Shown piece after piece: positions 19,758 to 54,005 of a stretch of DNA of 64,000 bases; positions within the stretch are counted from its first letter, which is position 1; each line of letters starts with the position of its first letter. Both the position numbers and the translations under genes were made by a program. Under the pieces are notes generated by a model. That model was not told the DNA's origin, did no database searches, and saw only the letters and a list, made by a program, of their open reading frames with translations. The DNA lies in assembly GCA_017303855.1 (NCBI GenBank), contig JAFLBL010000011.1, positions 62,001 to 126,000 on the forward strand, in the 5' to 3' direction. Origin of the DNA: Chitinophagales bacterium. Lineage in GTDB: Bacteria > Bacteroidota > Bacteroidia > Chitinophagales > Chitinophagaceae.

Positions 19758-19883
19758 TTTCCCACTCCCCACTCCCCACTCCCCACTCTCCACTCTCCAC
19801 TCTCCACTTTCCACTTTCCACTTTCCACTCTCCACTCCCCACTCTCCACTCTCCACTTTCCACTTTCCACTTTCCACTCTCCT
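19758..19883. repeat. Heptamer array, 18 units, over the VWA stop codon
   Basis: Eighteen consecutive 7-bp units of the form CTYYCCA (CTCCCCA, CTCTCCA, CTTTCCA) run without a phase break from just after the dnaJ terminator into the stop codon (19882-19884) of the minus-strand VWA gene. Variant units are clustered rather than random, suggesting expansion by slippage of blocks. Confidence 0.92.
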
Positions 19884-36658: not shown

Positions 36659-36820
36659 AAATCCAGGAACCGAAGGAGCTAAGACACCAAAGTAGAAGCA
36701 AAAGCAAGAAGCAAACGATAACCAATGAGCCGCCGGGCTTAGTGAATTGGCATGGGAATAATGTTGTCATTGAGGAAAGATAGAAATGACTTTGACTGTT
36801 AAAAATACTGCAATCTGTAA
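36659..36820. other. Intergenic stretch without a gene
   Basis: No supported gene. It begins with degenerate 8-9 bp purine-rich units (AGGAACCGA-like) and leads into the 43-bp repeat array. The TGTAAGGAGTTTCC at its end recurs at 37,929-37,942. Confidence 0.5.
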
Positions 36821-37064
36821 GGAGTTTCCTTGCTGCGCTGTTTGATGGACGTTAACGTTTGAGGAAGTTTCCTTGCTGCGCTGTTCGGCATACGTTAACC
36901 TTTTACGAAGTTTCCTTGCTTCGCTGTTCGGCATACGTTAACCTTTTACGAAGTTTCCTTGCTTCGCTGTTCGGCATACGTTAACCTTTTGCGAAGTTTC
37001 CTTGCTTCGCTGTTCGGCATACGTTAACCTTTTACGAAGTTTCCTTGCTTCGCTGCGGAATGAC
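36821..37064 (+). repeat. 43-bp tandem repeat array, left arm
   Basis: Six units start at 36821, 36864, 36907, 36950, 36993 and 37036, exactly 43 bp apart. Each begins GAAGTTTCCTTGCTTCGCTG (first unit GGAG, first two with GCTGCGCTG), and the last ends early in CGGAATGAC. Units 3-5 are nearly identical, and the 23-bp part between cores is also conserved, so these are not CRISPR spacers. CGAAG and CTTCG flank a constant 8-nt loop, giving a small hairpin in most units. Confidence 0.95.
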
Positions 37065-37085
37065 ATTGCCCCTTTTGGGGGGGGA

Positions 37086-37114
37086 CAAGTAAGACTTCTC
37101 GCTACGCTCGAAGT
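37086..37114 (+). repeat. REP-like module B, left copy
   Basis: A sequence close to AGACTTCTCGCTACGCTCGA follows a run of G some 20 bp after the end of the left array. A similar module occurs reversed at 37,557-37,583 and again forward at 37,988-38,010. Confidence 0.7.
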
Positions 37115-37121
37115 TGACGTC

Positions 37122-37463
37122 CTAGAATCTTCTGACTATATTTTGGGGGGGCCATTGACCGCAGATTTTTTCGTTCAGGAATTGCCAGCCAGGGTTTTGT
37201 GAGTTTATCAGTGCTTCTTTCTTGTTCCTGTTCCACTTTTTTAGTTCAGTTTCCCGGTTTATTGCCTCCTGAACATTTTCAAATGTTTCGTAGTAAATGA
37301 GGTTAAAGCAAAAATACCGTCCCGCAAATGTGGCGAAGCGCCCCCTGTTATCCCAATGCTCCGCAAGCCTGGCTTGCAGGTTATTCGTCACCCCGATGTA
37401 TAATGTAGTTCGATTCTTATTTGCAACAATATATACATAGTATGTTTTCCCATTTACTTTCAT
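37122..37463 (-). CDS. Small GIY-YIG nuclease
   Basis: This 113-residue protein is essentially one GIY-YIG domain: VYI at residues 10-12 (replacing GIY), YIG at 22-24, the catalytic-type Arg in NLQARLAEH near 32, and INRETELKKWNRNKKEALI with the metal-binding Glu. It matches the YhbQ/UPF0213-like group of stand-alone nuclease domains. The last dozen residues (CGQWPPQNIVRRF) fall outside the domain and come from sequence next to the repeats. The start is ATG. It is the only gene in a 1.4-kb repeat island and lies exactly between two inverted 43-bp repeat arrays. It might cut or mobilise those repeats; that is inference. Confidence 0.9.
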   Translation of the reverse strand: MKVNGKTYYVYIVANKNRTTLYIGVTNNLQARLAEHWDNRGRFATFAGRYFCFNLIYYETFENVQEAINRETELKKWNRNKKEALINSQNPGWQFLNEKICGQWPPQNIVRRF

Positions 37464-37554
37464 GTCTTGTCATTTATTTGCATGAAAGTGCTTAAAAAGA
37501 AATTCCCGGCAAGGTGATTTCCCTCACTTATTTCCGGGAAAAAAACGACCATTT

Positions 37555-37583
37555 CTGAGATTTCGAGCGCAGCGAGAAATCTT
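37555..37583 (-). repeat. REP-like module B, central reversed copy
   Basis: GATTTCGAGCGCAGCGAGAA is the reverse complement form of the module at 37,086-37,114 and leads into the right 43-bp array, in mirror order to the left side. Confidence 0.75.
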
Positions 37584-37603
37584 CCATCGCCCCCTCCACC
37601 GCC

Positions 37604-37905
37604 CGTCATTCCGCAGCGAAGCAAGGAAACTTCGTTCAAAACAAACGTCAGCCAAACTGCGCAGCAAGGAAACTTCGTTTAAGACAAACGTCAGCCAAAT
37701 TGCGAAGCAAGGAAACTTCGTCTAAGACAAACGTCAGCCAAACTGCGAAGCAAGGAAACTTCGTTCAAAACAAACGTCAGCCAAACTGCAAAGCAAGAAA
37801 ACTCCGCTCCCCCTCCACCGCCCGTCATTCCGCAGCGCAGCAAGGAAACTTCGTCTAAGACAAACGTCAGCCAAACTGCGAAGCAAGGAAACTTCCTGCC
37901 TGAGT
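37604..37905 (-). repeat. 43-bp tandem repeat array, right arm (inverted)
   Basis: GCAAGGAAACTTC cores start at 37621, 37664, 37707, 37750, 37793, 37840 and 37883. All spacings are 43 bp except one of 47, where a copy of the array entry sequence (CCGTCATTCCGCAGCG with its C-rich lead) is duplicated inside. The units are the reverse complement of the left array cores. The rest of the unit aligns with the left unit at about 19 of 30 positions by eye, so the two arms are related but each is homogenised separately. Confidence 0.95.
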
Positions 37906-37928
37906 TTAGAGTCTTCCGCTGCACCCTT

Positions 37929-38010
37929 GTAAGGAGTTTCCTTGCTGCGCTGCGGAATGACAAATTTCCTGGGGGGGGGTAAAAAAAAGATTTCTCGCAT
38001 CGCTCGAAAT
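37929..38010 (+). repeat. Forward A-B module closing the repeat island
   Basis: TGTAAGGAGTTTCCTTGCTG followed by CGGAATGAC, a G-run, and a module B copy (AGATTTCTCGCATCGCTCGA) repeat the order seen at the left side in the same orientation. The sequence shares its first 14 bases with the start of the left array. Confidence 0.8.
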
Positions 38011-38033: not shown

Positions 38034-38138
38034 CAACCTCCAACCTCGAACCTCCAACTTCCAACCTCCAACTTCCAACCTCCAACTTCCAACCTCCAAC
38101 TTCCAACCTCCAACCTCCAACCTCCAACGCTCAACTCT
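38034..38138. repeat. Heptamer array, about 15 units, over the lutC stop codon
   Basis: Units CAACCTC and CAACTTC alternate without a phase break for 14-15 repeats and run through the lutC stop codon (38131-38133). The two unit types alternate strictly through the middle, so the effective repeat there is 14 bp. Confidence 0.92.
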
Positions 38139-38709
38139 CCCTCACTATTACCGCCACCATCCCGCACGGCCCATGCGCCCCGATGACCAGGCTTTGTTCG
38201 ATATCGGCGGTTTTGGAAGGGCCGGCGATAAAGACACCGAAGCCGGTTTCGTTGATTGAGATGCGTTCGTAAGCCTGGTGCATGGTAGGAACCAGGTCTT
38301 TTTCGTTAATAATCAGAATGAGTTGCTGGGCAATAAAGGGCAGTAAGCGATTGACCATTTCATTTTCGGTGACCCAGATGGAGCCGTTCTCGGCTACGGC
38401 TACACCACCCCGTATGATGGCTGTATCCACGGAAGCCAGCGCGGCGGGAGATAATTGGGCCAGACCTGAAGGATGCTCGGCAGTGGTATCGATCACGAAA
38501 GTGCCTTTATCAAGAGAAGCAATAAATTGTTTTGCATCTTCGGCAGAAGCTACTTCTCTGCAACTGCCGCCAATTGCTGTTAATACCGTACTGAACTGGC
38601 TTAACAGGTCGGGATAACCGATTACCACCGACAGATCCGGGGTAACACCGGGCACTGCTGCCGGTTTATTCTTACGGATCGCACTGAATATTTGATCGCG
38701 GCTGCTCAT
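38131..38709 (-). CDS. lutC: Lactate utilization protein LutC
   Basis: This is a 192-residue LUD-domain protein, the third subunit of the LutABC iron-sulfur L-lactate dehydrogenase complex that oxidises L-lactate to pyruvate. TAIIRGGVAVAENGSIWVTE, then PFIAQQLILII and a closing GAHGPCGMVAVIV are typical. ATG at 38709 overlaps the lutB stop in an ATGA and is chosen over an ATG at 38733. It is the last gene of a rhamnose/lactate operon. Its stop codon is embedded in a heptamer repeat array. Confidence 0.93.
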   Translation of the reverse strand: MSSRDQIFSAIRKNKPAAVPGVTPDLSVVIGYPDLLSQFSTVLTAIGGSCREVASAEDAKQFIASLDKGTFVIDTTAEHPSGLAQLSPAALASVDTAIIRGGVAVAENGSIWVTENEMVNRLLPFIAQQLILIINEKDLVPTMHQAYERISINETGFGVFIAGPSKTADIEQSLVIGAHGPCGMVAVIVRES

Positions 38710-53000: not shown

Positions 53001-53078
53001 TGTCACCCCGAGCTTGCCGAACCATGACGAACCCATTGTGAATCTTGTTCGTCATGGTTCGACATGCTCACCATGACA
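53001..53078. repeat. Long-stem inverted repeat inside the GH43 3' end
   Basis: Arms at 53010-53032 and 53047-53069 are complementary at 21 of 23 positions with a 14-nt loop; TGTCA (53001-53005) and TGACA (53074-53078) extend the outer ends. A related partial sequence continues to about 53,095. The GH43 stop codon (53052-53054) lies in the right arm. Confidence 0.88.
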
Positions 53079-54005
53079 ACATGCGCTCAGCATGACAAGG
53101 AGCTCCGCTTTACTTACCCGGAAGATCGTACCGTGACGGAGTCCGGGAGGGATGCTGATCTGATCGGAAATGTCGGTCCAGCTGACCAGGTCGGCAGAAC
53201 TGACTGCTCCGTATTTATGATCGCGGTATTTATCGAAGTATACGATCCACTGGCCGTCCTTATATAAAGCCGTAGGTCCTTCGGCCCAGTAGTTACCGGT
53301 AATGGGAGCAGAAGGCAAAGAAAATCCGCTGGTCAGTTTTTTACTGAACGCCACGCGAATATTTTTCTGCGGCGGATTGCGTGTTTCATCTTTAAGAAAC
53401 ATTACATATTTTTTATCTACGGGCAAGATGCTCGCATCGATCACATTAAAGCCTTTATCATAAAGCATTTTTGTTTTGCTGAAGGATTTGAAGTCTTTAG
53501 TCGTTACATAATACATCCGGTGATTATAGCCGCTCTCCACGCTGGGATCAACAGGATATTTGCCCCGGATGGTGGTGGCCCAGTAGATCATGTATTGCTT
53601 TTTCTTCCGGTCCCAGGTGATCTCCGGTGCCCAGCAGTTACGGGCCGAATCTTCGTGCATCATCACGGAAATGAATTGCTGTTCGCTCCAGTGGATCAGG
53701 TCAGTTGAACTGGCATAACCGATACCCCGGTCATTCCAGCTCACCGTCCAGACCATGTGGAATTTGCCGTCCTGTCCGCGCAGGATACAGGGGTCACGCA
53801 TCAGTTTATCTTTGGAAACGGTGGGGGTCAGAAAAGAACTGTCATGCTTTAAAGCCTGCCATTTCAATCCATTAGTACTGGAGGCTAAATGCAGACCGTC
53901 CTGCCCGTTATTCTTAAAATAGGCAAAGAGCCAGACGCTGTCTGATTGGGCAGAAAGTCCAGTTGCCAATACGATGGCTAAAACAAATGCAGGTATTTTT
54001 CTCAT
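53052..54005 (-). CDS. GH43-like glycosidase with repeat-derived C-terminus
   Basis: This 317-residue exported five-bladed propeller enzyme has a signal peptide (residues 1-19). The likely catalytic residues are Asp in LMRDPCILRG near 71, Glu in NYWAEGPTALY near 240, and the pKa-modulating Asp in NVIDASILPV near 189; WAPEITWD is also typical. Relatives remove arabinose or galactose side chains. The last 18 or so residues (ELLVMLSACCHGEHVEP) are encoded by an intergenic repeat, so the original stop has been replaced. The start is ATG. It lies 4 bp after the DUF4450-like gene. Confidence 0.87.
   Translation of the reverse strand: MRKIPAFVLAIVLATGLSAQSDSVWLFAYFKNNGQDGLHLASSTNGLKWQALKHDSSFLTPTVSKDKLMRDPCILRGQDGKFHMVWTVSWNDRGIGYASSTDLIHWSEQQFISVMMHEDSARNCWAPEITWDRKKKQYMIYWATTIRGKYPVDPSVESGYNHRMYYVTTKDFKSFSKTKMLYDKGFNVIDASILPVDKKYVMFLKDETRNPPQKNIRVAFSKKLTSGFSLPSAPITGNYWAEGPTALYKDGQWIVYFDKYRDHKYGAVSSADLVSWTDISDQISIPPGLRHGTIFRVSKAELLVMLSACCHGEHVEP

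Follow-up and report, generated by a model that had tools for sequence, protein, structure and literature searches.

A GIY-YIG nuclease gene amid inverted repeat sets

The window analyzed here, a 64,000-nucleotide stretch of contig JAFLBL010000011.1 from a Chitinophagales bacterium (assembly GCA_017303855.1), contains a gene for a 113-residue GIY-YIG nuclease amid sets of short repeats, which comprise units A and B, G-runs and arrays of a 43-bp unit (Table 1). This arrangement of gene and inverted repeat sets, reported in a preliminary description of the locus, was confirmed at the base level. The inverted arms around the gene are 199 nt long, 78% complementary and 540 nt apart. The order of the repeats had also been described as mirrored around the gene, which holds for the arrays and for units A and B, all of them inverted on the two sides. 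However, a third set, consisting of unit A, a G-run and unit B, has the left-hand (forward) orientation, so the block is not a plain mirror; in addition, the 43-bp units on the two sides have different spacers, their shared part being mainly a core of ~18 bp, and the right inverted set has C-rich stretches instead of a clean run. The reversed array has a 133-bp superstructure, in which the GTCATTCCG end recurs.

Table 1. Nuclease gene and repeat features of the locus (positions within the window).
Feature	Position	Strand	Remarks
43-bp tandem array, left	36823..37055	+	partial REP core AGTTTCCTTGCTNCGCTG per unit; TRF: 5.4 copies, 94% matches
Full unit A, left set (AGTTTCCTTGCTTCGCTGCGGAATGAC)	37038..37064	+	ends CGGAATGAC; opposite-strand tag TGTCATTCCG
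G-run, left set	37077..37084	+	between units A and B
Unit B, left set	37093..37114	+	gene-strand reading CGTCAACTTCGAGCGTAGCGAGAAGTCTTAC; CGTC tag adjoins the stop codon of the gene
GIY-YIG nuclease gene, 113 aa, NPxW clade (UPF0213/Slx1-like fold)	37122..37463	-	PF01541 E=1.3e-16
Unit B, right inverted set	37560..37581	-	~100 bp upstream of the gene start
Full unit A, right inverted set	37605..37631	-	tag CGTCATTCCG
Reversed 43-bp array	37616..37895	-	6.4 copies, 78%
Further full unit A within reversed array	37824-37850	-	GTCATTCCG end repeated
Full unit A, third set	37935..37961	+	
G-run, third set	37971..37979	+	
Unit B, third set	37989..38010	+	

Genome-wide repeat counts were obtained by pattern searches. 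The 25-base core occurs five times in the 4.62-Mb genome (at most three mismatches), four of these at the window locus, and module B occurs 13 times; the reversed control pattern of the former and the control of the latter each gave 0 matches. Since both counts far exceed those of the control patterns, the repeat block is not a product of chance. Pairs of composite A/B-like repeats are also found in this genome at places that have no GIY-YIG gene (for example, C10:11329-11724).

Two arrays of seven-base tandem repeats (CAACCTC and CCACTCT) are located at positions 38034-38140 and 19762-19882 of the window, the first of which starts ~25 bases past the end of the third repeat set. A structured RNA family was considered for the locus and rejected, as Rfam gave just one sub-threshold match, to the ribosomal S15 leader (36726-36839; 22.9 bits against a threshold of 39.5), which overlaps the start of the left array and is probably due to chance.

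Family, residues and fold of the nuclease

The window protein matches PF01541 with 61.1 bits (cut-off 22.6), and its score of 18.6 bits against TIGR01453, the profile of group I intron GIY-YIG homing endonucleases, lies below the NCBIfam cut-off of 56.05. Comparison with 25 relatives revealed the invariant residues Y11, Y22, R32, H36, E71 and N90. The catalytic Tyr, Tyr, Arg, Glu and Asn are all kept, and the invariant residues are those of an active GIY-YIG nuclease. The structure predicted for the protein (mean pLDDT 91) has UPF0213 (1zg2) as its nearest solved fold, followed by Slx1, and its closest named relative comes from a Chitinophagaceae bacterium. The gene belongs to a clade of ~100-aa Slx1/UPF0213-like GIY-YIG nucleases that are linked to CGTC/TGTC-tagged REPs, as described in the following section.

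An assignment as a defence gene was rejected, the PADLOC matches being weak and partial, and so was a phage origin, for which there was no phage match. Elsewhere in the same genome (C4:29641-30163; L002, L007), a GIY-YIG gene of another clade lies beside a partial second copy of itself and adjoins a tRNA-like sequence, whose end is repeated along with it; this arrangement suggests a tandem duplication.

Relatives of the gene are flanked by CGTC-tagged REPs

A protein search of GTDB genomes yielded 80 loci with relatives of the gene. In a sequence-agnostic comparison of the two 600-bp flanks, exact direct repeats with a length of 15 bases or more were shared in 39 of 72 loci, as against 20 of 882 control positions, and exact inverted repeats of the same minimum length in 17 of 72 as against 2 of 882. 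In Bacteroidota, nearly all of these repeats are hairpins of the form (T/C)GTCAT NN CGA...(variable)...NN ATCT, with 5-bp outer stems, internal mismatches and a CT tail. In Pseudomonadota, they are CGTCATTCCCGCGAAAGCGGGAATCCA-type hairpins, many of which have an 8–9 bp stem that starts with AT, a loop of 4–5 nt and a CCA tail. The Pseudomonadota repeats are CGTC-tagged REPs, a class defined in a 2013 survey by Di Nocera et al. (PMC3733652), where these repeats were found without association to transposase genes and were said to ‘apparently lack a dedicated transposase’. In N. gonorrhoeae, a copy of the gene lies among CGTC-1 repeats, which correspond to dRS3 (PMC3733652). The CGTC/TGTC tag is present beside most relatives; distinct copies start with GTCAT (395) or GTCAC (31), and the base in front is mostly C or T. 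The conserved partner of the gene family is therefore a REP-like hairpin starting with GTCA. The 43-bp unit, which had been put forward as the partner, is lineage-specific and represents a local tandem expansion.

The link between gene and hairpin was quantified in 147 loci from several phyla with one detector, which was tuned with the data in view and with which controls were scored identically; it replaced a stricter version (7-bp stem) that missed the Bacteroidota repeats owing to their internal mismatches. In 127 of the 147 loci, a tagged hairpin is found at most 150 bp from the gene, compared with 58 of 800 control positions taken from these loci; 86 loci have hairpins on both sides (4 of 800 control positions), with tags facing outward in 55 of these 86. 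The preliminary description had named homologues without repeats nearby as evidence against its proposal; in fact, repeats are close by in nearly all homologous loci. No hairpin was detected within 400 bp in 13 loci, most of which show degenerate copies by eye. Typically, the element is compact, at ~350–450 bp, and consists of a REP, the nuclease gene and an inverted REP in this order, with the GTC tags facing outward. Among the Pseudomonadota pattern-match places listed, all 13 REP pairs that lie at most 150 bp apart likewise have a plus copy followed by a minus copy and outward tags.

With the same detector, no true REP was found beside seven UvrC/long GIY-YIG genes or beside 11 short GIY-YIG genes of other clades; the genes were sorted by reading the proteins, because automatic clade labels misplaced several of them. 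Flanking repeats as a property of any GIY-YIG gene can thus be rejected. Of 96 loci, 87 have REPs that agree in at least 7 of 8 stem bases on the two sides, compared with 23% between loci. Proteins that are more alike also have more similar REPs (r=0.52 and 0.42 in two samples; 0 of 2000 permutations), a correlation from which kinship was not removed. Paralogs in genome G406 are bracketed by different REP types (GGCCGGGCTTG..., TCCGGGGCG... and TTGCGAGCGAAGCG...), each matched between left and right, and the same is true of paralogs in genomes G197 and G134. That a GIY-YIG gene is linked to small palindromic repeats, as originally claimed for a single locus, is strongly supported by these relatives, and we regard the linkage as real and specific with near certainty.

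On the tagged strand, the loop reads C-GNA-G in 194 of 426 distinct hairpins and the complementary C-TNC-G in 15 of 426. GNA loops are unusually stable in DNA. This asymmetry suggests that one folded strand of the REP may be the form that matters.

The window copy departs from this general form. In its unit A, the (C/T)GTC tag is kept but the stem is limited to a short TTCC/GGAA pairing, and its left unit B combines CGTC with a 5-bp stem containing mismatches, so that the units lack the tag with 8–9 bp stem by which CGTC-tagged REPs are recognized; we treat them as decayed relatives of that class, not as members. Predicted single-strand folding of the window hairpins is no better than that of shuffled sequences (z=-5.5 for the comparison hairpin CGTCATTCCCGCGAAAGCGGGAATCCAG), and the tags point inward relative to the gene, opposite to most relatives. 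The window copy is a decayed and rearranged family member, in which half a REP was expanded into the 43-bp tandem array. Away from the gene, at positions 53051-53096, the window contains a pair of palindromes resembling CGTC REPs (CGTCATGGTTCGACATGCTCACCATGACA, TGTCATGCTGAGCGCATGTTG...).

Repeat number across genomes

The possibility that repeats are equally frequent in genomes without the gene, the second point raised against the proposal at the outset, is not borne out in either group compared. In statistics that ignore phylogeny, Chitinophagaceae genomes contain a mean of 20 hairpins when the gene is present (55 genomes) and 3.7 when it is not (89 genomes; Mann-Whitney p=4e-8), and in Pseudomonadota a CGTC-1-like pattern reaches at least 3 copies in 29 of 59 genomes with the gene and in 21 of 190 without it (249 genomes; odds ratio 7.8, p=3e-9). 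The Chitinophagaceae count was restricted to good genomes, with the gene called at E<=1e-12 and one general hairpin pattern. Among Chitinophagaceae genera with both states, gene-bearing genomes have more hairpins in 15 and fewer in 2.

Repeat-rich genomes in which the gene was not detected also exist, such as G243 (152 copies), G371 and G238. The repeats can therefore persist alone or with a partner that was missed here. In a further genome, where REPs but not the gene were detected (G309), three regions around REPs have no recognizable nuclease gene. The CGTC REP dimers in these regions (L378-L380) lie within a larger palindrome ending in TACACGACA / TGTCGTGTA, possibly a larger MITE.

A proposed mechanism of REP spread

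The resemblance of the fold to Slx1, the invariant catalytic residues and the asymmetry of the loop point to an enzyme that would recognize its own REP in a folded state (hairpin or cruciform) and then cut at or near the GTC tag. Slx1 is a branched-DNA nuclease. Repair of the cut would copy the element, or REP dimers from which the gene has been deleted, to new sites, and dispersed REPs and dimers would represent non-autonomous progeny, as REPINs do for RAYTs. The parts of this proposal differ in strength. Judged from sequence comparisons, the nuclease probably acts on REP DNA, whereas the chance that this action also causes REPs to spread is, in our estimate, just above even; we know of no strand-transfer activity in GIY-YIG enzymes. 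The account as a whole, a clade linked to tagged REPs with cutting of the folded REP and copying by repair, is the one we favor, with moderate confidence. The broadest reading is evenly balanced: NPxW-clade proteins may be enzymes dedicated to the CGTC REP superfamily, each recognizing its own folded REP, REP-gene-inverted REP a minimal autonomous mobile element of ~400 bp, and gene-deleted dimers the REP populations of many bacteria.

Gain and loss at orthologous sites and alternative explanations

Comparisons of orthologous sites show that the element is gained or lost as a unit, with presence and absence observed in Bradyrhizobium, Winogradskyella, Azospirillum and Sphingobium. In the dnaN-recF gap of 61 Bradyrhizobium genomes, ~14 have REP-gene-REP and several have CGTC REP dimers without the gene; one further copy (L215) is shortened, with the start of the gene fused to its end and the REPs intact, and plainly derives from a full element by deletion instead of representing an empty site. 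In Winogradskyella, many relatives lack the element of locus L068, and just a few bases separate the neighbouring genes there. In Azospirillum, an element lies between sufB and sufC of A. lipoferum and is missing in A. ramasamyi (flanks 97.9% identical). Among related Sphingobium plasmids, one has a single perfect palindrome where others have REP-gene-REP, and this palindrome resembles a fusion in which one REP contributes its left half and the other its right half. In these interspecies comparisons, where the flanks are too diverged, no exact insertion junction or target-site duplication could be read, and a comparison of Rhizobium plasmids was marred by an IS4 copy.

The same Bradyrhizobium gap holds, in ~25 genomes, a DUF559 gene (PF04480, E=5e-36) within a different inverted palindrome, CCCTCTCCCCTTGTGGGAGAGGGTGGCGCC... 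(among them L218, L221, L225, L228, L230, L231, L234, L235, L238, L239, L241, L245, L246, L248-L250, L254-L258). DUF559 is a restriction-endonuclease-like family, here in the slot that the GIY-YIG element takes in other species. Gene and palindrome together look like a second element composed of a small nuclease and a palindrome.

Several of these sites bear on an alternative in which the gene is a traveller that homes into REPs or REP dimers of other origin, in the manner of a free-standing homing endonuclease. Homing is a classic role of GIY-YIG nucleases, and gene-free REP dimers in the Bradyrhizobium slot, the Sphingobium palindrome and the repeat-rich genomes without a detected gene are what such a history would leave. 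However, the paralog-specific REP types, the matched sides and the higher repeat number of gene-bearing genomes suggest that REPs are more than landing sites, the shortened Bradyrhizobium copy derives from a full element, and the Sphingobium palindrome, with its two joined half-REPs, is at least as likely to be a deletion product. We therefore consider homing into pre-existing repeats unlikely, at about one chance in four, and retain the view that the nuclease acts on its own REPs.

It is considerably less probable that Y1 (RAYT-type) transposases or general host processes move the repeats, with the GIY-YIG gene as a bystander in repeat-rich intergenic DNA. RAYTs classically move REP pairs, and Y1 transposases are present in 146 of 197 Chitinophagaceae genomes, but their presence does not predict repeat number in these genomes, either with or without the GIY-YIG gene. 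Moreover, none of 28 Y1 loci has hairpins of the CGTC type on both sides, no such hairpins lie beside the Y1 loci of the window's own genome, and the 2013 survey recorded no Y1 gene flanked by CGTC REPs (PMC3733652). With Y1 loci unflanked and Y1 presence uninformative on repeat number, we reject RAYTs as the driver of these repeats; nor would a bystander have matched, paralog-specific REPs.

An ordinary minisatellite, that is, 43-bp arrays formed by replication slippage and located beside the gene by coincidence, is very improbable. Slippage may well explain the array, which is a tandem expansion of half a REP, and the one further A-type array of the genome, a ~45-bp tandem array in a second A/B cluster of the window's type at C23:269528 (L013, 1440-1710), has no GIY-YIG gene nearby. 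Slippage does not explain the locus: the gene clade is generally REP-flanked, and in a homologue with 65% identity (L031) units A and B again bracket the gene, between other neighbouring genes and with a tandem array of partial units. A minisatellite origin of the whole locus is thereby refuted. Least probable of all is a function of the repeats for the gene itself, such as transcription termination or mRNA stabilization, in which they are not mobile with it. The hairpins are indeed close to both gene ends, and roles of this sort have been ascribed to REPs (PMC3733652), but copies are dispersed at many gene-free sites, the tags have a fixed outward orientation, and the REP type differs between paralogs of one genome. 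Copying of REPs through cutting by their linked nuclease remains our preferred explanation.

Comparison with known systems

A GIY-YIG enzyme at such a place had been thought undescribed, and no report of the link was found in the literature searched, which included papers citing the CGTC survey and consisted mainly of open papers, with few subscription papers and no preprints. CGTC-tagged REPs are widespread, including those of Neisseria (dRS3) and Rickettsia (RPE), and their origin was left open in the defining survey (PMC3733652); a specific and widely shared gene beside them makes it testable. If the NPxW proteins are indeed the enzymes of these repeats, enzyme-driven REPs would have arisen a second time, independently of RAYT/GTAG. 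A fold of repair, restriction and homing would then also drive short palindromic repeats, a role for which GIY-YIG chemistry offers no obvious mechanism.

Among known proteins, UPF0213/YhbQ/YazA and Slx1 share the GIY-YIG fold and the catalytic residues, and the best structural matches are UPF0213 BH0048 (1zg2) and Slx1. However, Slx1 has an extra zinc-finger domain and needs Slx4, whereas the REP-linked clade consists of single-domain proteins with a conserved NPxW motif. Free-standing GIY-YIG homing endonucleases are similar in being solitary genes that appear and disappear at orthologous intergenic sites, but here inverted palindromic repeats bracket the gene and unrelated sites are occupied; no intron or cognate gene target was seen at the REP-linked loci examined.

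CGTC-tagged REPs, including Neisseria dRS3 and Rickettsia RPE-4/RPE-6, have a CGTC or TGTC tag, an AT-starting stem and a short loop and occur predominantly as head-to-head dimers (PMC3733652); several repeat families beside the gene are of this form. A difference is that the survey found these REPs unassociated with transposase genes and makes no mention of GIY-YIG (PMC3733652). The Bacteroidota copies, with their internal mismatches and a CT instead of a CCA tail, and the decayed window copies also depart from the described class. Finally, the analogy to RAYT REPtrons and REPINs, drawn in the preliminary description, is apt in anatomy, as both systems have a small nuclease-type gene bracketed by inverted REPs and gene-free REP pairs elsewhere. 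A REPtron has a Y1 HUH transposase gene between REPs of the GTAG type, whereas the gene at the window locus encodes a GIY-YIG enzyme and the REPs belong to the CGTC class. The anatomy is thus of a known, REPtron-like kind, with an enzyme other than a RAYT and repeats of the other REP class.
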